A program made the position numbers and the translations under genes. Source: Rhodobacterales bacterium HTCC2255 (GTDB lineage Bacteria; Pseudomonadota; Alphaproteobacteria; Rhodobacterales; Rhodobacteraceae). From it: 64,000 nucleotides of DNA. The stretch spans positions 1,324,066-1,388,065 of the forward strand of contig DS022282.1 in assembly GCA_000153745.1 (NCBI GenBank), in the 5' to 3' direction. Numbering within the stretch: position 1 is the first letter of the stretch; each line of letters opens with the position of its first letter. Below the pieces are notes generated by a model. The model had not been told where the DNA came from. It did no database searches and worked only from the letters and a program-made list of their open reading frames with translations. Of this stretch, positions 3,146 to 17,980 are shown piece by piece.

Positions 3146-3994
3146 TTAGAAATCTAATCCTAAGTCAAAATTTGTAACTGTATGTGTAAGGCCACCTACT
3201 GAAATAAAATCAACACCAGTTGAAGCAACTGAAGAAATACGATCTAATGTCATATTTCCTGATGCTTCAACAACCATTGTTCCATTAACCATTTTAACGG
3301 CTGAAAGCATATCTTCATTAGTCATATTATCTAATAATACAACATCTGCTCCACCATAATTAAGCACCTGTTCAAGTTGATTTAATGTATCAACTTCAAT
3401 TTCAATAGCAGTCATATGTGACGCGAAGTTTCTAGCACTTTCTAAAACTTTTTGAATACTTCCTGCAGCTGCAATATGGTTATCTTTAATCATAATCGCA
3501 TCGTTTAATCCAAACCGATGGCTTGACCCACCGCCATGACGAACAGCTTCTTTTTCTACGAGTCTTAATCCAGGCGTGGTTTTTCTTGTACAACTAATCT
3601 TGGCTTTTGTTCCTTTTGTTTCCGCCACAAAAGCTGATGTCATAGTTGCAATGCCAGATAGTCGGCCTGCAAAATTAAGCGCTACTCTTTCAGCCATCAA
3701 AATTGATTTGGCATCACCCTTTATAATCATACAGGTATCATTTGGCTTAACGTACGATCCATCCTTTAAACAGGTTTCAATTTCTATTTTTTTATCAATC
3801 ATTAAAAATGCTATTTCTGCAATTTGCATTCCTGATAATACACCCATGTCTCGTGCATTTAGTTTGGCACTATATGTAATTCCATCTGGTATAACTGCAC
3901 GGCTTGTCAGATCACCAACACCACCTAAGTCTTCCTCAAGTGCGTGTTTAATCATACTCTTTAATAAAAATTCAGGAATATCAGAATGGCTCAT
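3146..3994 (-). CDS. nadC: Nicotinate-nucleotide pyrophosphorylase (quinolinate phosphoribosyltransferase)
   Basis: Converts quinolinate and PRPP to nicotinate mononucleotide, CO2 and PPi, the third step of de novo NAD synthesis. At 282 residues it has normal length. Family features include the EEDLGGVGDLTSRA N-terminal signature, the phosphate-binding SCTRKTTPGLR segment, the RHGGGSSHRFGL basic loop, KDNHI, and the C-terminal VDFISVGGLTH stretch. The ATG is preceded by GGAGTAATT, a strong ribosome-binding site that overlaps the end of nadB. It is the last gene of a nadA-nadB-nadC operon. The downstream neighbour trxA is convergent, with no obvious strong terminator between them. Confidence 0.97.
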   Translation of the reverse strand: MSHSDIPEFLLKSMIKHALEEDLGGVGDLTSRAVIPDGITYSAKLNARDMGVLSGMQIAEIAFLMIDKKIEIETCLKDGSYVKPNDTCMIIKGDAKSILMAERVALNFAGRLSGIATMTSAFVAETKGTKAKISCTRKTTPGLRLVEKEAVRHGGGSSHRFGLNDAIMIKDNHIAAAGSIQKVLESARNFASHMTAIEIEVDTLNQLEQVLNYGGADVVLLDNMTNEDMLSAVKMVNGTMVVEASGNMTLDRISSVASTGVDFISVGGLTHTVTNFDLGLDF

Positions 3995-4002
3995 AATTAC
4001 TC

Positions 4003-5553
4003 CTATAAACTATTTCTTAAAACTAAGGCATCAACTAAATTCATTTTACTACGCTTTTGAAAATTATCGTTTTTGTTTGGAAAGTCTTTCCGATAATGAC
4101 CTCCGCGTGACTCTTTTCGCAAATATGCGGCTGCTGCAATTAATGTAGCTGCTGCGAGCATATTATCAAAATTAGTAGACTTACCACCATGTTCCAAATC
4201 TAACTTCTTAATAAATCTTAATGCTTTTGCTATATCCTCACCTGTTCTAATAACACCAACCCAATTAGACATAGCTTTACGCAATTCTAATATAACTTTC
4301 TCATCAATAAGATTAAACCCAACTTTTGGTACAGGTAAGTTCTTATCAAATATTTTATATTCGTTATTTTCAATTGCTTGAATTATTCCATTTGATGCTG
4401 TTGCAGCATAGACTAATGCTTCTAATAATCCATTTGAGGCCAATCTATTTGCGCCATGCAGTCCAGTCGATGATGCCTCGCCAGAAATCCAGAGCCCTTT
4501 TATTGATGATTTTCCTTTAATATCTGTAGCAACACCTCCCATATGATAGTGTGCAGCAGGTATAACCGGAATTGGTTGCCTTACAGGATCAATTCCACTT
4601 TTTAAACATGCTTCCGAAACTGAGGGGAATTGGTTAATAATGTTAGCTCCAATTGCGCTTCGTGTATCTAAAGCAGGCTTGTTACCACTTTGATGTTCAC
4701 GAAAAATGGCCCTAGCAACAATATCTCTGGGGGCTAATTCAGCATCTTTATGGATATTCTGCATAAATTGAATACCATCTTTATTTATTAAGATGGCACC
4801 CTCTCCACGTAGTGCTTCCGTTGCAAGAGGTGCAGGGTCTAGTTCTAAATCCATTGCTGTTGGATGAAATTGAACAAATTCTGCATCAGCAATTTCAGCT
4901 CCAGCTCGAGCCGCCATTCCTAATGCTAAGCCCCTAACTGTAGGAGGATTTGTCGTTTTCATGAATAAACTACCCGCCCCACCAGCAGCCATTAAATAAG
5001 CCTTAGCTTGAATAACAAAAGGATCATTCTCACCATTTGCTAAAACTACACCACACATTTCATTATTTTTTACTATTAAATCTAATGCTGTCACACCTTG
5101 CATAACTGTTATTGACGGTGTGTTTAACACTTCCTTAACAAGTGTTCTCATAATGGCAGCCCCAGCTTGGTCACCTTTAACTCTCACTACACGAGCAAAA
5201 CTGTGAGCAGCCTCTTTAGACATTAAAAAATCACCATTTCCCAAGCGATCAAATGGTGTGCCAACATCCGCCAATTCAAGCACATGTTCTTTTGCTGCAG
5301 ATGTAACAAATGTTGCAATATCTGCATCAACAATACCATCGCCTGCCATAACAGTATCATTTGCATGCGCTTCTGGGGTATCGTGTTCATCCATAGCTGC
5401 AGCCACACCACCTTGGGCCCATGCACTTGAAGCATCAAACCCCAATGGCTTTGGTGAAATTATGGTCACAGACCTAGGAGCAAGGTTAAGTGCAGCATAC
5501 AGCCCTGCCAAACCTGCTCCAATAATCAGAACGTTATGTTGCTTCTCTTTCAC
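4003..5553 (-). CDS. nadB: L-aspartate oxidase
   Basis: FAD enzyme that oxidises L-aspartate to iminoaspartate, the substrate NadA condenses with dihydroxyacetone phosphate. The 516-residue protein begins with a Rossmann GAGLAG dinucleotide-binding motif at residues 12-17. It carries the succinate dehydrogenase/fumarate reductase family signature: SSAWAQGGVAAA early, FVQFHPTAM and the catalytic-loop EALRGEGA in the middle, and HYHMGGVATD near residue 330. The start codon read here is GTG (CAC on the plus strand at 5551-5553), only 4 bases after the nadA stop, which implies translational coupling. Together with nadA and nadC it gives a complete aspartate route to nicotinate mononucleotide. Confidence 0.97.
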   Translation of the reverse strand: MKEKQHNVLIIGAGLAGLYAALNLAPRSVTIISPKPLGFDASSAWAQGGVAAAMDEHDTPEAHANDTVMAGDGIVDADIATFVTSAAKEHVLELADVGTPFDRLGNGDFLMSKEAAHSFARVVRVKGDQAGAAIMRTLVKEVLNTPSITVMQGVTALDLIVKNNEMCGVVLANGENDPFVIQAKAYLMAAGGAGSLFMKTTNPPTVRGLALGMAARAGAEIADAEFVQFHPTAMDLELDPAPLATEALRGEGAILINKDGIQFMQNIHKDAELAPRDIVARAIFREHQSGNKPALDTRSAIGANIINQFPSVSEACLKSGIDPVRQPIPVIPAAHYHMGGVATDIKGKSSIKGLWISGEASSTGLHGANRLASNGLLEALVYAATASNGIIQAIENNEYKIFDKNLPVPKVGFNLIDEKVILELRKAMSNWVGVIRTGEDIAKALRFIKKLDLEHGGKSTNFDNMLAAATLIAAAAYLRKESRGGHYRKDFPNKNDNFQKRSKMNLVDALVLRNSL

Positions 5554-5557
5554 AGCT

Positions 5558-6598
5558 TTATTTCAAATCAATCATTCGCTGAACCGCCAACCGTGCTTTT
5601 GCAGCCAATTCTTCTCTAACGACAACTTCTTCGTTTCCAGTGTGCAATGACCATAATATTTTTTCTAATGTAATTCTCTGCATGTGCGGGCATAGATTAC
5701 AAGGACCCAAGAAATTTACCTCAGGCACTTCATCAGCAATATTAGAACCCATTGAACATTCAGTTATTAATAAAACTTTTTCTGGTTTATTTTTTCTAAC
5801 AAAATCAATCATACCTGAAGTAGATCCACTAAAATCAGATTCATCAACAACATCAGTTGGGCACTCTGGGTGAGCTATAATTACAGCATCAGGTTCATAT
5901 TTACGATATTCACGTAACTCATCAGCTTTAAATTCAATGTGAACCTCACAAGCGCCTTCCCAATAAACAATTTTTTTACTTGTTTGTTTGGCAACATTTT
6001 GGGCCAAATGACCATCTGGTGTCATAATCACCAGTTCACTGTCCATTGCATTTATCACATCCACAGCATTTGAAGACGTGCAGCAAATATCAGACGCTGC
6101 TTTTACTTCAGCTGTTGTATTTACATATGAAACAACAGGTGCTCCAGGATATTTTTCTCTCATACCAGCAATATCTTTTGCTGTTATACTTTCTGCTAGT
6201 GAACAGCCTGCACGACTATCAGGAATGATAACTGTTTTTTCTGGACTTAGGATTTTTGAAGTTTCAGCCATAAAGTGTACTCCACCCTGGATTATAACAC
6301 TTTCTTTGACTCTGGTTGCTTCAATTGCAAGCTGCAAGCTATCACCTACAATATCAGCTACTCCATGATATATATCAGGCGTCATATAATTATGAGCTAA
6401 GATAACAGCATCTTTTTCTTTTTTTAGTTTATTAATTGCATGCACGTAAGGAGCACGCTTCATCCATTCAGCTTCAGGAATCACTCGGTCTACACAGCTA
6501 TATTGTTGCGCTGTTTCTTTAAACATAGCCGCACTAATCTCCAAATCGAAGACAACTTCTAGTTGAGATTTCATTTCTGGTGATCCAGGAATAATCAT
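5558..6598 (-). CDS. nadA: Quinolinate synthase
   Basis: Oxygen-sensitive [4Fe-4S] enzyme that condenses iminoaspartate and dihydroxyacetone phosphate to quinolinate. Length is 346 residues. The three cluster-ligand cysteines expected for NadA can be placed at C132 (AGCSLAE), C217 (EGACEVH) and C303 (CNLCPH; C300 is nearby). The sequence also contains [20 protein letters not shown] and the [14 protein letters not shown] segment typical of the family. It is the first nad gene of the operon. A 78-base gap separates it from the upstream reductive-dehalogenase fusion gene, which runs in the same direction, so read-through from that gene is possible. No NAD-responsive repressor gene was seen in this window. 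Confidence 0.97.
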
Positions 6599-6676: not shown

Positions 6677-9600
6677 TCAAAGGTCAATTTCAATTGTTCC
6701 ATTTGACTCTAGTGCACGCGATTGACATAAAATAATTGTATCCTCTCGTTCTTTATTGGACAGTACAAAGTCTCTATGCTCTACTTTTCCAGAAATTAAA
6801 CTACAACGACAAACACCGCAAATACCATTTGTACATTTCATATCCACATGGATGCCATTATCTAACAATACATCTGTTACCGTCTGATCTGACTGCACTT
6901 CAAACTCTCTATTGCTCTTTAATAATTTTATTTTAAATGAGTGGTTTTTATAATCTGTAACTTCTGGTGGTGCAAAATATTCAAAATTTACTGCTTCTTC
7001 AGGAAACCCAGCAGATGTTGCACTTTTTTGGGCATCATACATAAATTTATTAGGACCACACACATAGGCATTATAGCCTTCTTTATATGTACCAAATATT
7101 ACGTTAAAGTTAGCCCTTTTCCCTTCATCAGAAAAATAAAGTTTTATTTTATCCTTCCAAGAAACATTAGAAAGATGTTTTAATAATGCTGCTTTATTTC
7201 GGCTCGGTGAACAGTAACTAAATGAAAAATCTTGATGCTTTTTATGTAATTCATGTGCCATCGCAATCAATGGTGTAATTCCTATACCTCCGCCAATTAA
7301 AAAAGCCTTTGATAAGTTTTTTTTAAGTGGAAAATGATTTATTGGATATGAAGTAAAAATTTTACGCCCTGGGGTAAATATTTTGTGCATCAATACTGAC
7401 CCACCTGTTCCATTTTCTTCCTTAAGAACAGCAATTTGGTATATTTTACGATCAAAAGGATTACCAGTTAATGAATATTGTCGAATAAATCCTGGTGCAA
7501 CCACAACATCAACATGCGCACCAGCACTCCAGACTGGAAGATCTTCTCGAGATGGTAATGCAAAACTATATTCAATAATTTCATCAGTTGTTTTTTCAAT
7601 ATTAATAATTTCTAAATGTAAAATATTAATATTGTTTTTTATACTATAGCGATGAAATAAATCTTTTGTATCACCATTAGATAATCGTTTTTTATATTCT
7701 TTCGCATCTAATAATTTTGAATAAGCCTTTATGCCTTCTTCTCTATTAATAGGAAATGGAAATGGAAATGGATGTGGCGCTTGATCCGCAGGATACACTG
7801 CCAATGTTTGTTCAGAATATTTTATATCAAGTTTTTTTTGTAAATTTCTTTCATTAGTACCGTTTGATGTTGGGCGATAACCCTCATCAGCTTGGATTTC
7901 CAAATCCCACCACCACTTTTTGTTTAAGTTGCGTTCTCCATTTCCAACCCAATCATCTAATTTTGCTAAAAATGGTGCTGCGCTAGGAATATTCATTGCC
8001 ACCCAACGAAATGGTTTTTCTGAAAACAATCCTTCTAAGTTCCAAGGGCATGTTTTCATACATCTACCACACATTGCGCCAGCAGCAGTTGTTATTCTAT
8101 AAGTCGCACACCGTTGGCTATCTGATTTCCAGATTTCATATCCATTAAACATTTTCTTTGGTCCAGCCGTAATTGCTCCAGCAGGACATTCACGAGCACA
8201 TTTGTTGCAACTTTCACAAAACTTCTGCATACCAAAATCAATTGGTTTATCATGTTCCATAGGCATGTTTGTTGTGACTATTCCAGATTTTAACCTTGGG
8301 CCTAAATACGGATTTAATATTACTTCTCCAATTCGGCTAACTTCACCTAAACCTGATAATAAAAGTAATGGTGGGTGTATAACATCGCTATCAGTTGCAG
8401 TGTGTGCTTTTGCTTCATAACCTAAAGAACGGATATGTTCAGCAATGACACCGCCTAATAAGGAAAAGCGCAAATAAGCTCTCATTGATAATGCTACAGA
8501 AATCCAATCATCTCCAGAAGATCCATCCATAGTATCAAATCTTTGGTCAACAATCATAGAAATGGCTTGGTCTTGGGTTGGCTTAATTTCTTCACCAGCT
8601 GCATCATGCGAATAATAAGCCCAATCTGGGCATCTAGATATTCCAACTGCATCTATACCTAGGAAATAACACGCTGCCTTTATATTTTGCGCATTTATTT
8701 TAGCATTTTTTGCACTTGTGGATATTTCTTTGTTCGGCGGTTTATTTTGTAATAAAACAAAAGCACTCATAGGCTTCCTTTGTGCCATTGAGGGCGCAGT
8801 TTTACGAACATAGAATCCGTTTCTTGAACCATTCTCAACTGCTTTCCCAAGATCACCAAATTGTGCTCGAGCAAATAAATCAGTTCGTTTTGGTACTCGG
8901 GGTATATTTGGTTCATCTAAATATGTTGTAGGTATCTCAGTTCTTTTTGTTTTTTCAAAAGGCATTGCGCCATCAACAAATTTTCTATGTTTATAAGGTT
9001 CACGATTAAACTTACTTTTTGAATAGCCCAGTCCTATTAACCATTTGAAGCCATGAGTATAGAACTTTGGTTGTGCTGAATATTTTGCTAAGGGCAAATC
9101 AGTTTCTAATTTTAAATTAGTAGTCACAGCAGTTATACCAAATCTAGTTCCAATAAATGGGTTGGTAAGTGTATCTTCTTCTACTGTTGCCAAACCTGAC
9201 AGCACTGCCAATCGGTTTAAATCTACATCACTGCAAGATGTAGAATGCGAGCGTGCATCATATCCTAGTAAACGTATGTAATTTGATATTACATTTGCTG
9301 TTTCTGTACCCAATAGTGTTGCTCGTTCTGATTGAGCATTTTGAATCCAATCACACCCTATTTCATCAGATAATGGATCTCTTGGAAATTCATAAATGAA
9401 AACTACAGCATGTGTATGCTCACTCACTCCATTATTAGGTGCGTCTACAGCTTCTCGCAATTCTGCCATTAAGACATCAATACCAGCTGCAAATGTTTTA
9501 GTTTGCTTTGTTCGCAAATCTTCAGATAGTCTTTCAATGTCAGAGTTATAAATAGGTTTTTTTAAATGACAGTCAGTATCAATTTTAGTAATTCCTACTA

Positions 9601-9889
9601 CTGAACAATCTTGAAAATATGCAAAAGATTTTAGGTGATTAGAACGTTCTGTTAAGTTGCTTGGAATATCACAACGCCCCTTATTAACTAGACCACTTCG
9701 CATTGCATCCATCATCGCTTGATAATCACGCATTGCGTTTATAATAGAATGTGGGTTTTGTTTGTGATCAAAACTTAGTGCTTTCATTCTAGGTGTTTTT
9801 TCAATTGGCCCAGATACACGCTTCAAACGCTCCATGGGGTATGGACCTAAATGGGAAAATCTGTTTTTTTCTGAAAAAAATTTAGTCAT
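6677..9889 (-). CDS. rdhA: Self-sufficient reductive dehalogenase-like fusion: RdhA-type Fe-S/corrinoid domain plus FMN/NAD(P)H/2Fe-2S reductase
   Basis: A 1070-residue multidomain redox protein. Residues ~85-266 and ~405-548 are two diverged copies of the same domain: LGYDARSH with TNPFIGTRFG and VTTNLKLETDLPL in the first, LGYEAKAH with LNPYLGPRLKSG and VTTNMPMEHDKPI in the second. Two ferredoxin-type 4Fe-4S motifs follow, C558/C561/C564/C568 and C594/C607/C610/C614. Residues ~750-965 form a phthalate-dioxygenase-reductase module with an FMN-type RQYSL motif at 803-807 and an NAD(P) loop GGGIGITP at 866-873. A plant-type 2Fe-2S domain closes the chain (C1019, C1024, C1027, C1055). This architecture matches the catabolic cytoplasmic RdhA group (BhbA of Comamonas, NpRdhA of Nitratireductor), which removes halogen from halophenols using NAD(P)H. 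No twin-arginine signal is visible, so it should be cytosolic. A distant epoxyqueuosine-reductase relative is the alternative, but the reductase tail argues against that. Cofactor and substrate are inferred. Confidence 0.85.
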   Translation of the reverse strand: MTKFFSEKNRFSHLGPYPMERLKRVSGPIEKTPRMKALSFDHKQNPHSIINAMRDYQAMMDAMRSGLVNKGRCDIPSNLTERSNHLKSFAYFQDCSVVGITKIDTDCHLKKPIYNSDIERLSEDLRTKQTKTFAAGIDVLMAELREAVDAPNNGVSEHTHAVVFIYEFPRDPLSDEIGCDWIQNAQSERATLLGTETANVISNYIRLLGYDARSHSTSCSDVDLNRLAVLSGLATVEEDTLTNPFIGTRFGITAVTTNLKLETDLPLAKYSAQPKFYTHGFKWLIGLGYSKSKFNREPYKHRKFVDGAMPFEKTKRTEIPTTYLDEPNIPRVPKRTDLFARAQFGDLGKAVENGSRNGFYVRKTAPSMAQRKPMSAFVLLQNKPPNKEISTSAKNAKINAQNIKAACYFLGIDAVGISRCPDWAYYSHDAAGEEIKPTQDQAISMIVDQRFDTMDGSSGDDWISVALSMRAYLRFSLLGGVIAEHIRSLGYEAKAHTATDSDVIHPPLLLLSGLGEVSRIGEVILNPYLGPRLKSGIVTTNMPMEHDKPIDFGMQKFCESCNKCARECPAGAITAGPKKMFNGYEIWKSDSQRCATYRITTAAGAMCGRCMKTCPWNLEGLFSEKPFRWVAMNIPSAAPFLAKLDDWVGNGERNLNKKWWWDLEIQADEGYRPTSNGTNERNLQKKLDIKYSEQTLAVYPADQAPHPFPFPFPINREEGIKAYSKLLDAKEYKKRLSNGDTKDLFHRYSIKNNINILHLEIINIEKTTDEIIEYSFALPSREDLPVWSAGAHVDVVVAPGFIRQYSLTGNPFDRKIYQIAVLKEENGTGGSVLMHKIFTPGRKIFTSYPINHFPLKKNLSKAFLIGGGIGITPLIAMAHELHKKHQDFSFSYCSPSRNKAALLKHLSNVSWKDKIKLYFSDEGKRANFNVIFGTYKEGYNAYVCGPNKFMYDAQKSATSAGFPEEAVNFEYFAPPEVTDYKNHSFKIKLLKSNREFEVQSDQTVTDVLLDNGIHVDMKCTNGICGVCRCSLISGKVEHRDFVLSNKEREDTIILCQSRALESNGTIEIDL

Positions 9890-10004: not shown

Positions 10005-11003
10005 ATGGAAAAAATAGAAGTTAATTTAGATGAAATTGAGCATTTAACTCAAAAAGCTCTTATTTGTCATGGTGCATCAAATTGGATTGCTAAATCAGTA
10101 GCTAAAGCAGTGAGAACAGCTGAAGCTAAAGGCAATTTAATATGCGGATTATATTATTTAGAAAGCTATTGTAGTCAATTAATCACTGGACGAGTAAATG
10201 GAACTATTGAACCTATTGTTTCATTACCAAGAACTGCATCTGTATATGTAGACGCTCAGTTTGGATTTGCTCAACCAGCTTTTGAGCGTGCATTACCATT
10301 AGCTTTAAAGACTGTAACAGAAACTGGTACATGCTCTTTAGCTGTTTCGCATTCTCATACATGTACCTCTTTGGGATATTTTACTGAGCAAATTGCAAAA
10401 TCAGGATTCATAGGTATTGGGTTTACCAATGCGAGCGCTGTCGTATCACCACCCGGTGGTAACAAAGCTATCTTAGGAACAAACCCTATTGCTATGGCTT
10501 TACCTGCAAAAAATGGTGGTATTGCATTTCAATTTGACCAAAGCACCTCTGCAATAGCTCTTGGAAAAATTACTATGGCCTCTGCTGCTGGAGAAGCTAT
10601 TCCATTAGGATGGGCTGTTGATAGTCATGGAAATGACACAACAGATCCAAACAAAGCCTTGAAAGGGTCTTTAAAATCTTCTGGTGATTATAAGGGGTGG
10701 GGATTCGGTCTCATGACGGAAGTTTTGGCAGCAGCATTTACCGGATCAGTAAATTCATTAGATGTTAAAGGATTAAAACTTCCAGAAGGAAAACCTCATG
10801 ATTTAGGCCAATGTTATATAATTCTTGATCCAAATACGCATGGCAACTCTTTCTTTGATCGCATTGACAGAATAATTACAGCAGTTGCTGAACAAGAAGG
10901 TACTAGGTTACCTGGTTCAAACTTTATAATGCCCGAAACAGTTAAAATTGAAAAAAAAATCTTTGACCAATTAAACAAACTCTCAAAAGGCCCAACAGCA
11001 TGA
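10005..11003 (+). CDS. Ldh_2-family NAD(P)-dependent oxidoreductase with atypical active site
   Basis: Member of the malate/L-lactate dehydrogenase (Ldh_2, YlbC-like) family, which reduces or oxidises 2-hydroxy acids, ureidoglycolate or cyclic imino acids such as delta1-piperideine-2-carboxylate. It has 332 residues. Recognisable parts are the VSPPGGNKAILGTNPIA nucleotide-site segment at about 147-163 and the helical KGWGFGLMTEVLAAAFTGS segment near 225. Two usual active-site elements differ: the expected S-H-G is I-C-G at residues 46-48 (AKGNLICG), and the N-S-x-H-f-G region reads SHSHTCTSLGYF at 115-126, closer to the imino-acid reductase type. It is the first gene of a plus-strand operon divergent from rdhA, with a possible -10 TATAAT at 9982-9987. 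It overlaps the next gene by 4 bases (ATGA). The substrate cannot be assigned. Confidence 0.85.
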   Translation: MEKIEVNLDEIEHLTQKALICHGASNWIAKSVAKAVRTAEAKGNLICGLYYLESYCSQLITGRVNGTIEPIVSLPRTASVYVDAQFGFAQPAFERALPLALKTVTETGTCSLAVSHSHTCTSLGYFTEQIAKSGFIGIGFTNASAVVSPPGGNKAILGTNPIAMALPAKNGGIAFQFDQSTSAIALGKITMASAAGEAIPLGWAVDSHGNDTTDPNKALKGSLKSSGDYKGWGFGLMTEVLAAAFTGSVNSLDVKGLKLPEGKPHDLGQCYIILDPNTHGNSFFDRIDRIITAVAEQEGTRLPGSNFIMPETVKIEKKIFDQLNKLSKGPTA

Positions 11004-11983
11004 CAAATTATCAAATCGATTGTTTACAGTATGCAAACTGGTCTGAAAATATTTTTAAAGAAATGAGAGAAGGTGGGCTAGATGCGGTGCATGTTACAAT
11101 AGCTTATCACGAAACATTTAGAGAAACTGTCTTAAACATGGAGCAGTGGAACCGTTGGTTTGAACAGTTTCCTAGTTTAATATTTCAAGGGACCACAGGT
11201 GCCGATGTTCGCTTAGCAAAAGAGACCAACAGAACAGCAATTTTCTTTGGTTTTCAAAATCCATCACCTATTGAAGATGATATTGGCCTTGTTCAAATTC
11301 TACATCAACTAGGCGCACGATTTATGCAACTCACATATAATAATCAATCCTTACTAGCGACTGGGTGTTATGAAAGTTATGACGCTGGGCTCACGAGAAT
11401 GGGACGAGAAGTTGTAAAAGAAATGAACCGCGTAGGAATGGTTGTAGATATGAGCCATTCTGGTGAAAAATCAACTTTGGACGCTATAGAATATTCTGAA
11501 CGTCCCATAGCAATTACTCACGCAAACCCACATAACTGGCATCAAGCCCTACGAAACAAATCAGATACGGTAATGAGAGAACTATCAAATTCAGGAGGTA
11601 TGCTAGGTTTTTCTATTTATCCCCATCATTTAAAAGGTGGGACAAGTTGTACTATTGATAGCTTTTGCAAAATGATTTCTGATACAGCTAATATTATGGG
11701 AATTGATAACATTGGTATTGGAACTGATTTATGCCAAAATCAACCTGATAGCATTGTAGAGTGGATGCGAGTAGGGCGCTGGACAAAAGGCATAGATTAT
11801 GGTGAAGGCACCGCGTCAAATGCTGGATTTCCACCTATGCCAACATGGTATAAGGATAACAGAGACTTTTCAAATATAGCTAATGGGCTATATAAAATAG
11901 GAATGACTGAAACAGAAATCTCAAAAGTCATGGGAAATAATTGGTTAAACTTCTACGATAATAATTTTGGTGCTATTAAATGA
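11000..11983 (+). CDS. Membrane dipeptidase (peptidase M19)-like protein lacking canonical metal ligands
   Basis: A 327-residue amidohydrolase-fold protein of the renal dipeptidase (M19) family. Conserved elements include VDMSHSG (H153), AITHANPH (H174) and GIGTDLCQ (D243). Canonical M19 enzymes also use an N-terminal H-x-D pair and a bridging glutamate. Here the N-terminus reads IDCLQYANWS at residues 6-15, with no histidine, and the glutamate position reads FGFQN (Q86). A conventional two-zinc dipeptidase is therefore unlikely; it may bind one metal or act on a different amide or lactone. No signal peptide or membrane segment is seen, so it should be cytosolic. It is translationally coupled on both sides (ATGA overlaps), so its product is probably made in step with the Ldh_2 protein and the unknown 552-residue protein. 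Confidence 0.8.
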   Translation: MTNYQIDCLQYANWSENIFKEMREGGLDAVHVTIAYHETFRETVLNMEQWNRWFEQFPSLIFQGTTGADVRLAKETNRTAIFFGFQNPSPIEDDIGLVQILHQLGARFMQLTYNNQSLLATGCYESYDAGLTRMGREVVKEMNRVGMVVDMSHSGEKSTLDAIEYSERPIAITHANPHNWHQALRNKSDTVMRELSNSGGMLGFSIYPHHLKGGTSCTIDSFCKMISDTANIMGIDNIGIGTDLCQNQPDSIVEWMRVGRWTKGIDYGEGTASNAGFPPMPTWYKDNRDFSNIANGLYKIGMTETEISKVMGNNWLNFYDNNFGAIK

Positions 11984-13638
11984 TACCACAAGTTGATCTC
12001 CGCAAACCTGAAGAGGTGATGAAATTATCTCGATTGGGTAGTCTACATCAATCGCGTATTAGCTTCATGCGTGTATTGTTAAGACGTTTGGCGTCCGAAA
12101 ACTGGCATTTTGACAAGCCGAATTGGAACATCGATGATGACGGCTTTGGATATGCAACCTATAGCGTGCATGGCCCCGAAAGAAGCTATACTTTGGTTGC
12201 TTTTGCCCACGATTTACCTGCTGAATTAAGGTCTGATCGCGTAATTGCGGAAGCATGGGATTGCACATTCACTCTTCATGATGGCATTCCGTCAGAAGAT
12301 GATATTATTCGCCTAAAAAATAATGTTCCCCTTCAAGAGGCTGGAAGAATATCGAAAAATGAATTAACTCTTTCTAGGGCTAATCGATCTGTAAGGTTGT
12401 GGAATTATGTTGTGGATTCATTAGCTGCAGGAATACAGCCTGATGAAAAAAAATTAAATGACGTTGGTTATTTAATGCGAACAACAGCAGTTTATGGCTC
12501 GGGAAAATTTGGCGCATCAGATCGATCAAAAATTTCTGATAGACAAGAAATGCGAACTCCATTTCAAGCAGAAATGTTAACTGTTTATTTAATACGATGC
12601 TTTGTTATGGATTTAGTAGATTTTGTTGCATCTAAAAAAGGTGGTGATGCCGCCGTTAAATTAGATCCAAAATTACGCAAATCTATGGGAATTGGAAATT
12701 CAACTGGGCTTGGTATGGCTCCTTTTTTAGTCAATCACCCCGCACTTTTAAGCACATGGATATACGCTAGAGAAACTGCGTTAGCACGAGTGAGAGCTAT
12801 TAAAACTGTTCCAGAAGAAACATTTTCTGAAATGAGAGAGCATTTAAATAATGCCCTAAAAAATGCTCGGAGTTGGACAAGTGAGCATGAAATTCAAAAA
12901 CCAAAAATAAAGATATTTTGTGACGAGCTAGCTCAAGTCGTTTCAAAATTTGAAACATTGGATAAAGAAGACTATCCATGGGATGCTCTTCATCTTTGGT
13001 CTACAAATAAACTAAGTGAAGACACACAAGAACAAATTATTTCAGCTCTGTTTGAGCCTTATTCTGAATTAGTAGATGATCTATCTGATTGTATGTATAT
13101 TGATGAAGCTAAACATTTTAAAATAGATGCTTCTATTTCAACAGATGAGTTAAAAAACCAAATAAAGGAAAATTATGAATGGGCTATTAATATAGATTAT
13201 TCAAAAAAAGAAAATCAGTCTAGATTTTGGTATGTTTCAGAATCAAAGCTCGAACCACGCTTAGGAGAACGGTTTGAAGAAGATGGATCTGAACTTGAAC
13301 AACCATTGGCAGTTGCCCGAGATATTGCTTCACTAAATTCAGATTTAAACAAAAAACAAAATTTAGGTGAGTTTTTATTAGCATATCCTGAACACAGACA
13401 TATTGTACGGCGGATACAGTTGAGTAAAAAATTTCCATACTCAGAAATCCGGGACAATTTATTAAATAATAAAATGCTTCCTATTGATATGTTGCGCTGT
13501 AAATTATCATTTTTTGGAGCAACAAAGTTTGACCCAAGATCAGATAGGTGGGTTAGAATATGTATGTTTAAGGATGCTCCGTTTCCTGAAGAGTTAACAA
13601 ACAAAGATAACTGGTCTTATGGGGCCCACGCTTGTTAA
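11980..13638 (+). CDS. Uncharacterised 552-residue protein of the catabolic island
   Basis: I do not recognise a named domain. The protein is 552 residues long, acidic, soluble-looking and probably largely helical, with no signal peptide or membrane segment. Noticeable features are aromatic and charged stretches near the N-terminus (ASENWHFDKPNW around 38-49, WDCTFTLHDG around 92-101), a Gly-rich segment SMGIGNSTGLGMAPFLVNHPAL near 234-255, and a Trp/Arg-rich C-terminus (DPRSDRWVRICMF). The start overlaps the M19-like stop by 4 bases, and the end overlaps the next gene's TTG start by 7 bases, so it is firmly embedded in the operon. The tight coupling suggests a shared role with the neighbouring enzymes, perhaps as an enzyme on the same substrate. 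No function is claimed. Confidence 0.85.
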   Translation: MIPQVDLRKPEEVMKLSRLGSLHQSRISFMRVLLRRLASENWHFDKPNWNIDDDGFGYATYSVHGPERSYTLVAFAHDLPAELRSDRVIAEAWDCTFTLHDGIPSEDDIIRLKNNVPLQEAGRISKNELTLSRANRSVRLWNYVVDSLAAGIQPDEKKLNDVGYLMRTTAVYGSGKFGASDRSKISDRQEMRTPFQAEMLTVYLIRCFVMDLVDFVASKKGGDAAVKLDPKLRKSMGIGNSTGLGMAPFLVNHPALLSTWIYARETALARVRAIKTVPEETFSEMREHLNNALKNARSWTSEHEIQKPKIKIFCDELAQVVSKFETLDKEDYPWDALHLWSTNKLSEDTQEQIISALFEPYSELVDDLSDCMYIDEAKHFKIDASISTDELKNQIKENYEWAINIDYSKKENQSRFWYVSESKLEPRLGERFEEDGSELEQPLAVARDIASLNSDLNKKQNLGEFLLAYPEHRHIVRRIQLSKKFPYSEIRDNLLNNKMLPIDMLRCKLSFFGATKFDPRSDRWVRICMFKDAPFPEELTNKDNWSYGAHAC

Positions 13639-14045
13639 CAGAATCTGAAATTTTAGCTTATGCAAAGAAAGCGACACGTGGCGCAGGTTTTTCTTGGGGT
13701 ATGGCCGAAGAAGCGGCTATGGCAACATTAAGGCTTTATAACGCAGGATATGATGGGTTTTTAGAATTAACTTCTATCTTAGAGAATGCAGATGGGCAAA
13801 AACAACCATTAGATATTAAAATAAAAGTTCCATGTGGATTAACATTAGGTACTTTTTATTTAGATTGTTCAAAAAAAGCGGATTATGTAGAGGTAATAAG
13901 CCATCTTATGTTTCAATCACTTTGTGGTGACTTAAAAATTAAAGAACCTAGATTTCCAGAAGATGCACCAGATATAATTAAAAGATTTGCCCATAGAACT
14001 TATGTGCCTGATAGTGAAGAATCTCGTTTACGTGGAGCAGGATAA
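13632..14045 (+). CDS. DUF3726-like small protein
   Basis: A 137-residue protein. Its N-terminal segment (LTESEILAYAKKATRGAGFSWGMAEEAA) fits the pattern I recall for DUF3726, an uncharacterised bacterial family; the match is from memory. The start chosen is TTG at 13632, overlapping the upstream stop by 7 bases; the first in-frame ATG is about 22 codons later and would remove the most conserved part. Residues 40-110 read as beta-rich (DIKIKVPCGLTLGTFYLDCS, YVEVISHLMFQSL). The C-terminus ends in ESRLRGAG, a pattern that could be a flexible tail. Coupling with the 552-residue protein suggests the two products act together. No catalytic motif is evident. Confidence 0.75.
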   Translation: MLTESEILAYAKKATRGAGFSWGMAEEAAMATLRLYNAGYDGFLELTSILENADGQKQPLDIKIKVPCGLTLGTFYLDCSKKADYVEVISHLMFQSLCGDLKIKEPRFPEDAPDIIKRFAHRTYVPDSEESRLRGAG

Positions 14046-14084
14046 ACAATTGTTTTTTTTCATAAAAGGTGTTTCACTACTTAT

Positions 14085-15314
14085 ATGAAATTAAAAGATT
14101 TAGAAGTTTTTGTTGTCAAAAACCCTCCTCCAGGTTGGGGTGGAAGATATTTTATTTTTGTCAAATTAACAACTGATAATGGGATAATCGGATATGGCGA
14201 AGTTTATTCTGCATCAGTAGGGCCAAAAGCGATGGAAGTTATCATTAATGACGTTTTTGAACGTCATATGATGAATGAGAACCCTGAAAATATAGAGATG
14301 ATGTTTAGACGTACCTATTCATCTGGCTTCACTCAACGTCCTGACTTAAGCATAATTGGAGCCTTTTCAGGTTTAGAAATTGCTTGCTGGGATATTTTAG
14401 GTAAAGCACACAATCGTCCAGTTTATGCTTTATTGGGTGGAAAAATGAATGACCGAATAAGGTCATACACATATCTTTATCCAATGGAACACCATGATAT
14501 TTCAAAATTTTGGACATCACCAGAAATGCAAGCTGAGAGTGCTATGGAAATGATTAATCTAGGTTTCACAGCCATAAAGTTTGATCCTGCTGGTCCTTAT
14601 ACCGCCCGTGGTGGTCACATGCCTGCACTTACTGATATTGAATTATCCGTTAAAATGTGCGCTGCAATAAGAGACGTTGTTGGTACGAAAGCAGACTTAC
14701 TATTTGGCACTCATGGTCAATTTTCAACCGCTGGTGCAATCAGATTAGGCCGTGCATTAGAGCCCTATGATCCTCTATGGTATGAAGAACCAGTTCCACC
14801 AGATAATATTTCATCAATGGCAAAAATTGCTAACTCAATAAGAATTCCTATTGCTACAGGAGAACGTTTGAGTACAAAAAATGAATTTTTTCAAGTTTTA
14901 AAAGAAGGTGCCGCAAGTATTCTTCAACCAGCTTTAGGTCGATCTGGTGGTATATTAGAAACTAAAAAAATTGCCGCAATAGCTGAAGTCAACAATGCAC
15001 ATATTGCACCTCATCTTTATGCCGGTCCAGTTGAGTGGGCAGCTAATATACAATTAGCAGTTAACATCCCTAATATTCTAATGGCTGAAACTATTTTAAC
15101 AGGTGGTGGTTTTTCAGGAAACCTTATTAAAAATAAAATAATATGGGATGATGGATTTATTGTTGCCCCAACATCTCCAGGCATTGGGATTGAGTTTGAT
15201 GAAGAGCTTGCACGAAATAATAAATATAACGAAAACAGATTGCATTTAGAAATGCAGGATGAGCCATGCGACTACAAGAATAGTAATACATTCGCTGGCG
15301 GAGCTTCTGATTAG
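14085..15314 (+). CDS. Enolase-superfamily enzyme (mandelate racemase/muconate lactonizing type)
   Basis: A 409-residue member of the MR/MLE family, whose acid-sugar dehydratases and racemases abstract a proton alpha to a carboxylate using Mg2+. The capping domain precedes a barrel with AIKFDPAGPY (K165, D167), FGTHGQFS (207-214), WYEEPVPP (E234/E235), ATGERLS (E260) and IAPHLYAGPVEWAA (H310). The Asp that normally provides the first metal ligand at the end of beta-3 is replaced by Gly208, with H210 nearby, and the usual Q-P-D is QPA (A283). Acid-sugar dehydratase is the likeliest class, but the substrate is open. The gap after the DUF3726-like gene is 39 bases with an AAAAGGTG ribosome-binding site, so it probably belongs to the same transcript. 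Confidence 0.85.
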   Translation: MKLKDLEVFVVKNPPPGWGGRYFIFVKLTTDNGIIGYGEVYSASVGPKAMEVIINDVFERHMMNENPENIEMMFRRTYSSGFTQRPDLSIIGAFSGLEIACWDILGKAHNRPVYALLGGKMNDRIRSYTYLYPMEHHDISKFWTSPEMQAESAMEMINLGFTAIKFDPAGPYTARGGHMPALTDIELSVKMCAAIRDVVGTKADLLFGTHGQFSTAGAIRLGRALEPYDPLWYEEPVPPDNISSMAKIANSIRIPIATGERLSTKNEFFQVLKEGAASILQPALGRSGGILETKKIAAIAEVNNAHIAPHLYAGPVEWAANIQLAVNIPNILMAETILTGGGFSGNLIKNKIIWDDGFIVAPTSPGIGIEFDEELARNNKYNENRLHLEMQDEPCDYKNSNTFAGGASD

Positions 15315-15433
15315 TAATGATTGTTATTTATTAATATCTAAACCTTGCGACAAATCATGTCGTTAAAATACATGCAATAATATTCACACTCGTTTTAATT
15401 TCAATACTTGCAGTTAAAGAGAGAATAAAATTT

Positions 15434-17980
15434 ATGAAAACACATGCTAAAGCCATTGTTATTGGGGGGGGAGTGGTTGGATGTTCTGTCTTATACCACC
15501 TAGCAAAAGCTGGCTGGAAAGATATTATTCTTATTGAAAGATCTGAATTAACAAGTGGCTCATCATGGCATGCAGCAGGAGGTTTCCATACCTTAAATGG
15601 TGATCCCAATATGGCAAAATTACAAGCCTACACAGTTGGATTATATAAAGAATTAGAAGAACTCTCAGGTCAATCGTGTTCACTACATTTAACTGGTGGT
15701 GTTATGATGGCTGATAGTTCTGAAAGAATGGATTTCTTACGCATGACACACGCTCGTGGTAGATGCTTAGGAATGGAAACAGAATTAATTACACCATCAG
15801 AAGCTAAGGAAATGTTTCCTTTAATGGACGAGACTCATTTTGTTGGTGCTTTATGGGATCCCGTTGAAGGGCATTTAGACCCATCAGGTACAACACATGC
15901 TTATGCGAAAGCAGCGCAAGTTTTAGGTGCGGAAATAGAACTTCGCAATCCCGTTTTAGAAATTACACAAAACAGTGATGGAATGTGGAATGTGGTTACA
16001 AAAAACGGCACAATCAGCGCAGAACATGTTGTAAATGCAGGTGGGCTTTGGGCTCGTGAAGTTGGTAGAATGGTTGGGTTAGAGTTACCACTGCTTGCAA
16101 TGGAACATATGTATCTTTTAACAGATGATATGCCTGAAGTTATTGATTTTAATTCCGAAACTGGGCGAGAACTAGTTGGTGTGATTGATTTCAAAGGAGA
16201 AATTTATACACGCCAAGAACGTAATGGTCTTTTATTAGGAACGTATGAAAAGGCATGTAAGCCATGGTCACCAATTAATACACCTTGGGATTTTGGTCAT
16301 GAGTTATTACAACCTGATTTAGATAGAATTACACCGTCATTAGAAGTTGGATTTAGGCATTTTCCTGCATTTGAGAAGGCAGGCATTAAACAAGTCATAA
16401 ATGGGCCATTCACTTTTGCTCCTGATGGCAACCCTTTAATTGGTCCAGTACCTGGATTAACAAATTATTGGTCTGCGTGTGCAGTCATGGCGGGATTTAG
16501 TCAAGGTGGTGGTGTGGGATTAGCATTAGCAAATTGGATGGTTAATGGTGATCCAGGATTTGATATATTTGCAATGGATGTAGCGCGATTTGGTGAGTGG
16601 GCGACACTCAGATATACCAATGCTAAAGTACGTGAGAACTATTCTAAACGCTTTTCAATTAGTTTTCCAAATGAAGAATTACCGGCAGCAAGACCCCAGC
16701 AAACAACACCTTTATATGACATAATGCTAAATGAAAATTTTGCAGTAATGGGAGATACTTGGGGTTTAGAAACTCCATTATGGTTTGCACCTTCAAAAAA
16801 AGAAGCCCATGATATTTTATCTTTTCACCGATCTAATGACTTTGAACATGTAGCTTCTGAAGTTGAGGCAGTGCGAAATAGTGTTGGAGTCACAGAAATT
16901 TCTAATTTTGCCAAATATGAAATATCTGGTGAAGATGCAGAGATCTTTTTAGACTATTTAATGACAAATAATATGCCAAAACTAGGGCAAATTATTTTAA
17001 CTCCAATGTTAAATGAAAATGGTAAATTAATTGGTGACTTCACTATTGCAAAAGAAGCAAATAATAAATTTTTATTATTTGGCTCATTAAGCGCTACTAA
17101 ATATCATATGCGCTGGTTTGAGAAACATATGCCATTATACAAATCATTAAAAATAAAACGTTATGATATGAACTTACATGGTTTATCAATTGTAGGGCCA
17201 AATGCACGAAATGTACTTCAAGAACTAGTTGATGAAGATATTTCTAACTTGAAATTTAAATTTATGTGTTTTCGTAAAATGAACGTTAATGGCGCACCGT
17301 GTATGATAAATCGCCTAAGCTATTCAGGCGATTTAGGTTATGAAATATGGATGGCACCTGAATATCAAAGAAAAGTTTATTATGGGATTAAAGATAAAGG
17401 AAGCAAATTTAATATTAAGGACTTTGGAATGCGCGCATTATTATCCATGCGTTTAGAAAAGAATTTTCCTAGTTGGTTTGCAGAATTACGTCCAATTTAT
17501 GGACCCTACGAAAGTGGTATGGAAAGGTTTATTAAAATCAATAAATCTAAGTTTATTGGGCAAACTGCAGCCAAAAAAGAACTCCTTAATGGTCCTAATA
17601 TTTGTCGAACGTCTTTTATCATAGATGCTGATACATCAGATGCTATGGGTAATGAACCCATATGGGCCAAAACCAAAAAAACTTATAATCTGATTGATCC
17701 ACCCCATAAATATGGGGCGCACCGGTATGATGCCGATGGCAACGAGATATCAGCAGCTAATCCTCAGAAAAAGGATGGATGGCAAGTTGTAGGCTGGGTA
17801 ACATCAGGAGGATATGCACACTCAATAAAAGCATCTATGGCACAAGGTTATATACCTGCCGACTTATCAAAAATAACGCAAAAAGATATGTTTGAGATAG
17901 AAATTTTAGGGAAAAGGTGTCCATGCCAAATAGTTATTGCCCCACCTTTCGATCCCTCAGGTGGGCGCATGAAATCATAA
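15434..17980 (+). CDS. FAD-dependent sarcosine/dimethylglycine dehydrogenase-like protein with GcvT domains
   Basis: An 848-residue flavoprotein. The N-terminal DAO domain has the dinucleotide-binding motif GGGVVG at 11-16 and SGSSWHAAGG with His46, the position that carries covalent FAD in dimethylglycine and sarcosine dehydrogenases. The middle FAO_M region is followed from about residue 430 by GcvT N- and C-terminal domains (NRLSYSGDLGYEIW, IGQTAAKKEL), which bind tetrahydrofolate and capture the formaldehyde released on oxidative N-demethylation. Family length is 800-860, so it is complete. The ATG at 15434 follows AAAGAGAGAA; the 119-base gap upstream contains a small CGACA/TGTCG hairpin but no convincing terminator. 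The stop abuts the convergent folC stop. Oxidation of an N-methylated amino acid is likely, but the exact substrate is not determined. Confidence 0.88.
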   Translation: MKTHAKAIVIGGGVVGCSVLYHLAKAGWKDIILIERSELTSGSSWHAAGGFHTLNGDPNMAKLQAYTVGLYKELEELSGQSCSLHLTGGVMMADSSERMDFLRMTHARGRCLGMETELITPSEAKEMFPLMDETHFVGALWDPVEGHLDPSGTTHAYAKAAQVLGAEIELRNPVLEITQNSDGMWNVVTKNGTISAEHVVNAGGLWAREVGRMVGLELPLLAMEHMYLLTDDMPEVIDFNSETGRELVGVIDFKGEIYTRQERNGLLLGTYEKACKPWSPINTPWDFGHELLQPDLDRITPSLEVGFRHFPAFEKAGIKQVINGPFTFAPDGNPLIGPVPGLTNYWSACAVMAGFSQGGGVGLALANWMVNGDPGFDIFAMDVARFGEWATLRYTNAKVRENYSKRFSISFPNEELPAARPQQTTPLYDIMLNENFAVMGDTWGLETPLWFAPSKKEAHDILSFHRSNDFEHVASEVEAVRNSVGVTEISNFAKYEISGEDAEIFLDYLMTNNMPKLGQIILTPMLNENGKLIGDFTIAKEANNKFLLFGSLSATKYHMRWFEKHMPLYKSLKIKRYDMNLHGLSIVGPNARNVLQELVDEDISNLKFKFMCFRKMNVNGAPCMINRLSYSGDLGYEIWMAPEYQRKVYYGIKDKGSKFNIKDFGMRALLSMRLEKNFPSWFAELRPIYGPYESGMERFIKINKSKFIGQTAAKKELLNGPNICRTSFIIDADTSDAMGNEPIWAKTKKTYNLIDPPHKYGAHRYDADGNEISAANPQKKDGWQVVGWVTSGGYAHSIKASMAQGYIPADLSKITQKDMFEIEILGKRCPCQIVIAPPFDPSGGRMKS

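Follow-up and report, generated by a model that had tools for sequence, protein, structure and literature searches.

The best described relatives of the gene analysed here are BhbA and JtRdhA, self-sufficient catabolic reductive dehalogenases (RdhA), and NpRdhA. JtRdhA from Jhaorihella thermophila, a fusion of RdhA with a phthalate dioxygenase reductase (PDOR), consumes one NADPH per product and is oxygen-tolerant, working in air; it debrominates and deiodinates ortho-halophenols, chloro-analogues being only inhibitory, and the characterised class members act on ortho-halophenols (PMC10463259, here and below as far as its text was accessible). NpRdhA from Nitratireductor pacificus (structures 4ras and 6zxu) has a vestigial and an active cobalamin domain, two 4Fe-4S motifs and the residues Y426, K488 and R552, but is without a fused reductase (PMC10463259). 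BhbA (WP_015585978, Comamonas sp. 7D-2) is a full-length fusion encoded on the conjugative plasmid pBHB, close to ring-cleavage genes. Here we describe a candidate gene of this class, rdhA, in a 64,000-nucleotide stretch (the window) of contig DS022282.1 from Rhodobacterales bacterium HTCC2255 (GCA_000153745.1). With a rough probability of 0.75, it encodes a cytoplasmic, cobalamin-dependent, self-sufficient reductive dehalogenase with ortho-bromo- or ortho-iodophenols as its probable substrates, serving detoxification or co-metabolism rather than carbon supply.

Layout of the predicted dehalogenase

The reading frame starts with ATG, encodes 1070 amino acids and has zero internal stops. Judged from full-length intact homologues across many genomes, it is not a chance open reading frame (ORF). 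Its features are as follows, in window coordinates, with residues of the window protein and the basis of each assignment in brackets.

6677..9889, minus strand: rdhA, putative self-sufficient reductive dehalogenase, RdhA-PDOR fusion, 1070 aa (ORF, TIGR02486, 4ras, 2pia, Foldseek)
8900..9889, minus strand: N-terminal half, putative vestigial copy of the cobalamin domain, residues about 1-330 (phmmer alignment to the N-terminal half of 4ras)
8225..8722, minus strand: predicted active cobalamin-binding core, residues about 390-555, limits approximate (alignment to 4ras; 4uqu match at 466-661)
8474..8476, minus strand: Y472 codon, equivalent of the proton donor Y426 of NpRdhA (4ras alignment; 38/38 fusions)
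8288..8290, minus strand: K534 codon, equivalent of NpRdhA K488 (4ras alignment; 38/38 fusions)
8183..8218, minus strand: first 4Fe-4S motif, CESCNKCARECP, residues 558-569 (motif search)
8096..8098, minus strand: R598 codon, equivalent of NpRdhA R552 (4ras alignment; 38/38 fusions)
8045..8071, minus strand: second 4Fe-4S motif, CGRCMKTCP, residues 607-615, with C594 upstream (motif search, fusion alignment)
6680..7621, minus strand: phthalate-dioxygenase-reductase-like tail, residues 757-1070 (Pfam, 2pia, fusion alignment, motifs)

The RdhA part matches the NCBIfam reductive dehalogenase model TIGR02486 (4.6e-60, 204 bits, cut-off 160), and its best solved relative is NpRdhA (4ras, 4.2e-147 in phmmer, residues 3-107 and 157-726); the mapped part has 212 identities over 502 aligned residues. 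PceA (4uqu) also aligns, over residues 466-661. Residues 108-156 lie between the aligned stretches, opposite only 7 residues of 4ras, and the accessible text of PMC10463259 does not give the coordinates of the published fusion-specific insert over the active site. When the two half-sequences were compared by eye, T191 and G251 of the N-terminal half stood at the places of Y472 and K534 in the active half, as expected for a putative vestigial domain. The solved relatives of the tail are a fused P450 (6kbh) and phthalate dioxygenase reductase itself (2pia, 2.3e-48, residues 756-1062); the latter corresponds to the C-terminal 300 residues, but is named for another partner enzyme and is not fused to an RdhA. 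The tail also contains a plant-type 2Fe-2S motif from C1019 to C1055, together with RQYS and GGGIG, which we take to be its flavin and NAD motifs. Pfam finds Fer2 in the tail (5e-12) and 4Fe-4S models. The Dehalogenase model PF13486 has no match in the protein or the genome; this silence says little because the model is also silent in 14 of 14 control genomes.

Two other assignments fit less well. QueG (epoxyqueuosine reductase, TIGR00276) scores 23.9 bits, short of its cut-off of 200. Marks of a respiratory RdhA are missing: a motif search confined to the first 60 residues found no twin-arginine motif (RRxF[LIM]), and the adjacent genes are nadA and Ldh_2, RdhB not having been sought genome-wide. 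The predicted cobalamin core, the vestigial duplication, two 4Fe-4S motifs, the Y/K/R residues, a C-terminal PDOR and the missing twin-arginine motif together point to the BhbA/JtRdhA type, of which the window protein is, by its sequence, a member and, as a protein, an ordinary one.

These results partly support the original prediction, made from the letters alone, and confirm its layout of a corrinoid enzyme fusing RdhA, two 4Fe-4S motifs and an FMN/NAD/[2Fe-2S] tail without a twin-arginine signal. The catalytic Tyr/Lys pair that it proposed to look for is found as Y472/K534, and of the Pfam domains that it named, the 4Fe-4S models were recovered and Dehalogenase was not. Self-sufficiency with NAD(P)H, also proposed there, has been shown for JtRdhA, which has the same layout; NpRdhA, counted there among proteins of this layout, does not belong among them, being without the fused reductase (PMC10463259).

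Comparison with a structure model led in the same direction. An AlphaFold2 model built from 41 sequences has a mean predicted local distance difference test score (pLDDT) of 73 and a predicted template modelling score (pTM) of 0.74; pLDDT falls under 50 over residues 499-534, and other stretches are poor. In a structural comparison of the kind that the original prediction had suggested, a Foldseek search of the model against the PDB places 14 NpRdhA chains on top (template modelling score by target length 0.82-0.84, nearly all of NpRdhA aligned), followed by two P450 fusions whose reductase is similar and then 2pia. This search adds little beyond the sequence match, and the domain arrangement is not established by the model.

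Active site, distribution and phylogeny

The 4ras alignment maps F291, S422, M423, Y426, K488 and R552 of NpRdhA to F339, S468, M469, Y472, K534 and R598 of the window protein. All 38 aligned fusions (the window included), like BhbA, have these same six residues, which are among those named as conserved between NpRdhA and JtRdhA (PMC10463259). BhbA shares 43.1% identity with the window protein over 1065 positions. Other positions vary: NpRdhA F290/A419/H459 correspond to F/S/Q in BhbA and L/V/H in the window, and N452 of NpRdhA to A498. At the A419 position (V465), which lies close to the substrate's second bromine, 35 of the 38 fusions have V. JtRdhA resembles the window protein in its RdhA-PDOR fusion, the named active-site residues, the lack of a twin-arginine signal and a marine host (PMC10463259). 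By its published description it differs in that the window protein belongs to a clade on a long branch and to a small genome. The host of JtRdhA is presumably, like that of the window, a member of the Rhodobacteraceae.

A sample of 198 genomes from the window's family, its own among them, has the RdhA part in at least 81 (tallied by eye from the match table), in 77 of them as one intact fusion. The other four comprise one without the tail (G033), one with fragments containing stops (G096), one split in two frames (G099) and one partial (G102). The raw match count of 117 includes genomes matched by a reductase alone. The best 80 of 566 confirmed loci in a scan of named genomes are, by record title, mostly from Rhodobacteraceae, and also from Hyphomicrobiales and the gammaproteobacterial Granulosicoccaceae. 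Plasmid copies were found in 8 of 72,556 records at E up to 1e-60. The class is thus published and common in this family, so the kind of enzyme is not new. The novelty lies in a divergent representative from a pelagic lineage with small genomes, where the genomic setting speaks against the catabolic role implied by the class name.

The closest sequences among the matches listed come from two Amylibacter metagenome-assembled genomes (MAGs; L054, 84% identity, and L055, 77%) and a Rhodobacteraceae MAG (L063, 76%); the fusion of Amylibacter kogurei, another genome of the same genus, is 58-59% identical. Two trees, built from 38 and 39 fusions, unite the window and its three sisters in one clade on a long stem (Shimodaira-Hasegawa-like approximate likelihood ratio test support 100). 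In both trees this clade nests in a large, mostly alphaproteobacterial group, apart from BhbA. Its placement within that group is unsettled: support is under 95, the trees differ, and all four members carry letter-composition warnings. The ratio of nonsynonymous to synonymous substitution rates (dN/dS) of rdhA in the sister pair L055-L063 is 0.076, with 0.023-0.105 for five neighbouring genes, which shows purifying selection on rdhA in one sister pair, the only one for which the ratio is computable (the other 5 of 6 pairs are saturated in each of the six genes).

It is also evident that the window clade has substitutions of its own. At 14 sites all four members are changed where 29 other fusions are invariant, and the changes include Q467L beside S468, V498A, G501S and Q505H. 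An enrichment around the pocket (4-5 of the 14, P about 0.02) was obtained only in stretches chosen post hoc and is not claimed. Residues 400-620 as a whole hold 6 of the 14 (P = 0.41), which is no enrichment, and residues 327-400 hold 5 (P = 0.001, likewise post hoc). The clustering of changes around the pocket is not statistically firm.

Several side observations concern the wider family. Plasmid pBHB carries two RdhA fusions (L134 and L139), 78% identical, each adjoining a gene for the binding protein of a tripartite tricarboxylate transporter. Next to one of them are also NAD(P) transhydrogenase genes, whose product might provide NADPH. Relatives interrupted by in-frame stops or broken into fragments were seen in G193 (contig 12, 38798-40090) and G096 (contig 17), and may be decayed copies in some family members. 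The fusion occurs in Granulosicoccus or Granulosicoccaceae records (L069, L080, L082, L107, L118, L124 and L132); the three of them placed in the tree group with alphaproteobacterial sequences (one next to Jannaschia), which probably reflects gene transfer or misbinned contigs. Ros_A3X954 of Roseobacter sp. MED193, a reductive dehalogenase of a Roseobacter without a twin-arginine signal, debrominates 2,6-dibromophenol (PMC13101508). It was considered as a protein of the same layout and set aside: its motif CDICTKCADACP at 283-294 is in neither the window protein nor the MED193 fusion (L074), and it is another reductive dehalogenase, apparently shorter to judge from its motif positions.

Host genome and probable role

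The host genome comprises 2 contigs totalling 2.30 Mb (99.75% complete, 3.35% contamination), and the window has 35.9% G+C. The accessible text of PMC10203303 describes HTCC2255, of the NAC11-7 lineage, as streamlined, with 36.7% G+C. The host looks like a streamlined, Amylibacter-type pelagic member of the Rhodobacteraceae, and we infer that it belongs to NAC11-7. The original prediction had expected cobalamin genes elsewhere in the genome, and this is confirmed in part by four genes for corrin synthesis. A CbiJ/CobK match (2.3e-57) lies in a stretch that also has cbiD, cobA (uroporphyrinogen-III methyltransferase) and cobB, each scoring above a curated cut-off; CobK narrowly passes that of TIGR00715 and falls just short of that of its best-scoring model. 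Ten further ORFs of this stretch were scanned and held no other corrin gene. De novo cobalamin synthesis is likely, as predicted from these four genes.

We then considered the fate of a dehalogenated product. Six ring-cleavage models have no match in the host genome at E <= 0.001, BoxB not having been searched for: PF00775 (intradiol dioxygenase), PF04209 (homogentisate dioxygenase), PF02900 (LigB extradiol), PF05138 (PaaA/PaaC), TIGR02295 (HpaD) and TIGR02272 (gentisate dioxygenase). Of the 14 control genomes, the same models match in 4, 1, 4, 4, 8 and 4, respectively. PF00775, present in 148 of the 198 family genomes and in HIMB11, is absent from the three sister genomes (1.9, 2.4 and 2.0 Mb, completeness not known) and from A. 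kogurei. Judged by gene content, the host thus keeps a putative dehalogenase without the tested means of ring degradation. A role in carbon supply is unlikely because no ring-cleavage route was found among the families sought. Growth on halophenols, as the class name implies, is unsupported in this host, and co-metabolic debromination or detoxification therefore fits better.

In the mechanism that we propose, electrons would pass from NAD(P)H through FMN and the [2Fe-2S] cluster of the tail to the two [4Fe-4S] clusters and on to the corrinoid cobalt, which would take the halogen off the bound substrate. Y472, with K534, would give the proton, and S468, K534 and R598 would anchor the phenolate. 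Judged from homologues, ortho-brominated or -iodinated phenols would be the substrates. In the host, the reaction would most likely dispose of toxic or otherwise unusable bromophenols, or act as reductive co-metabolism, rather than provide a carbon source. The activity, electron path, substrate and physiological role are thus deduced from relatives and genome content. The original prediction had likewise proposed halophenol chemistry, which is likely by homology; its chlorinated substrates are unlikely by analogy with JtRdhA, for which they are only inhibitory (PMC10463259), and halophenol use for growth found no backing in the six families.

Several points weigh against this assignment. The predicted activity and substrate are assigned from homologues, BhbA at 43% identity and JtRdhA by its published description. 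The window clade stands on a stem of 0.82-0.83 changes per site, and its 14 specific substitutions suggest that its substrate range may differ. Confidence in the structure model is moderate. In addition, TIGR02272 exceeds its own cut-off in none of the 14 controls, and the absence of six families is not the absence of every ring-cleavage route, BoxB being an example.

Among other explanations, it is conceivable, but rather unlikely, that in the Amylibacter/NAC11-7-like clade RdhA-PDOR left catabolism, persisted without a ring-cleavage pathway, changed its pocket and became purely reductive, detoxifying small natural bromocarbons or bromophenols. A truly catabolic enzyme, with aromatic acids debrominated, cleaved and used as carbon, would match the setting of BhbA, whose gene is close to protocatechuate 4,5-dioxygenase genes, and of a relative whose gene, on plasmid pOM-1, has pobA and genes for extradiol dioxygenases nearby. 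Comparison of 86 loci shows a pobA-type cluster in 5 of them, and clusters with DctP and DctM of the tripartite ATP-independent periplasmic (TRAP) transporter in 8 each. We consider this unlikely for the window, given the missing ring-cleavage families in the host, the absence of PF00775 from the sisters and A. kogurei, and neighbouring genes that give no pointer to aromatic compounds. Nor is rdhA associated with PF00775 across the family (64/81 with rdhA, 84/117 without; P = 0.32, Fisher's exact test), a result that is neutral as to a catabolic role in other genomes.

A further proposal is that the pelagic-clade enzyme reduces small bromocarbons in oxic seawater, for example bromoform (CHBr3) to dibromomethane (CH2Br2). 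The accessible text of PMC6594743 cites, second-hand, this conversion by three marine alphaproteobacterial strains (Phaeobacter gallaeciensis, Roseobacter denitrificans and Rhodobacter vinaykumarii), and reports a denaturing gradient gel electrophoresis band near Amylibacter marinus (NAC11-7) in a CH2Br2-making bromoform-plus-methanol treatment; the clade-specific substitutions, some near the substrate pocket, would also suit such a change. However, that treatment lacked a methanol-only control, no amplicon sequence was close to the Amylibacter band, and the accessible text names no enzyme for the oxic conversion. The characterised class members act on ortho-halophenols, as noted above, the phenol-binding residues are unchanged in the window protein, and the post hoc clustering vanishes over residues 400-620. 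A limited literature search found no printed link of this enzyme with Amylibacter or bromoform, a word absent from the main text of PMC13101508. The conversion literature is a lead, not evidence, and we regard the proposal as quite improbable.

The gene itself adds little, the class being published; its value lies in the question that it raises. A dehalogenase kept intact in reduced-genome plankton without a detectable product pathway suggests that in surface seawater reductive debromination may be of benefit in itself. The RdhA-PDOR family is a directly testable candidate for the oxic conversion of CHBr3 to CH2Br2, and bromocarbon detoxification, if true, would add an aerobic biological process to marine bromine cycling.

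Genomic neighbourhood

The flanking genes in the window are as follows, the first three given as context.

5558..6598, minus strand: nadA, quinolinate synthase, 78 bp downstream of rdhA (NCBIfam, over cut-off)
4003..5553, minus strand: nadB, L-aspartate oxidase (NCBIfam, sister comparison)
3146..3994, minus strand: nadC, nicotinate-nucleotide diphosphorylase (NCBIfam, sister comparison)
10005-17980, plus strand: divergent run of Ldh_2, M19 dipeptidase, a 552-aa protein, DUF3726, MR/MLE dehydratase-like and DAO/GCV_T genes (Pfam)

The order rdhA-nadA-nadB-nadC and its 78-79 bp spacing are kept in the window and all three sister loci, but a part for rdhA in NAD metabolism is highly unlikely: the arrangement is confined to this clade, nadA adjoins rdhA in none of the other loci compared, of 18 further loci of the family a single one has nadABC on the stretch that carries rdhA, at a distance of three genes, and shared descent explains the order. 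The window gene order is absent from A. kogurei, L056, L057, L091 and the wider locus comparison.

Across the 86 loci (4 of which, without a full rdhA ORF by a simple caller, were left out of the neighbour list), recurrent neighbours besides DctP, DctM and the pobA-type hydroxylase include a MarR-type regulator in 7; annotated examples are MarR in L135 and pobA in L137. A conserved operon as a substrate clue was sought and given up, there being none family-wide and the recurrent neighbours being limited to subsets of loci. Further synteny is common mainly to Ruegeria records. The first five genes of the divergent run keep their order in all three sister loci. The DAO/GCV_T gene is an edge fragment in L055 (95% identity over 155 aa) and is not in the L054 and L063 stretches examined. 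The 552-aa protein (11980-13638, plus strand), which has no match in NCBIfam and none below E 0.8 in Pfam, is 73-82% identical in the sisters, with a dN/dS of 0.081 in one pair.

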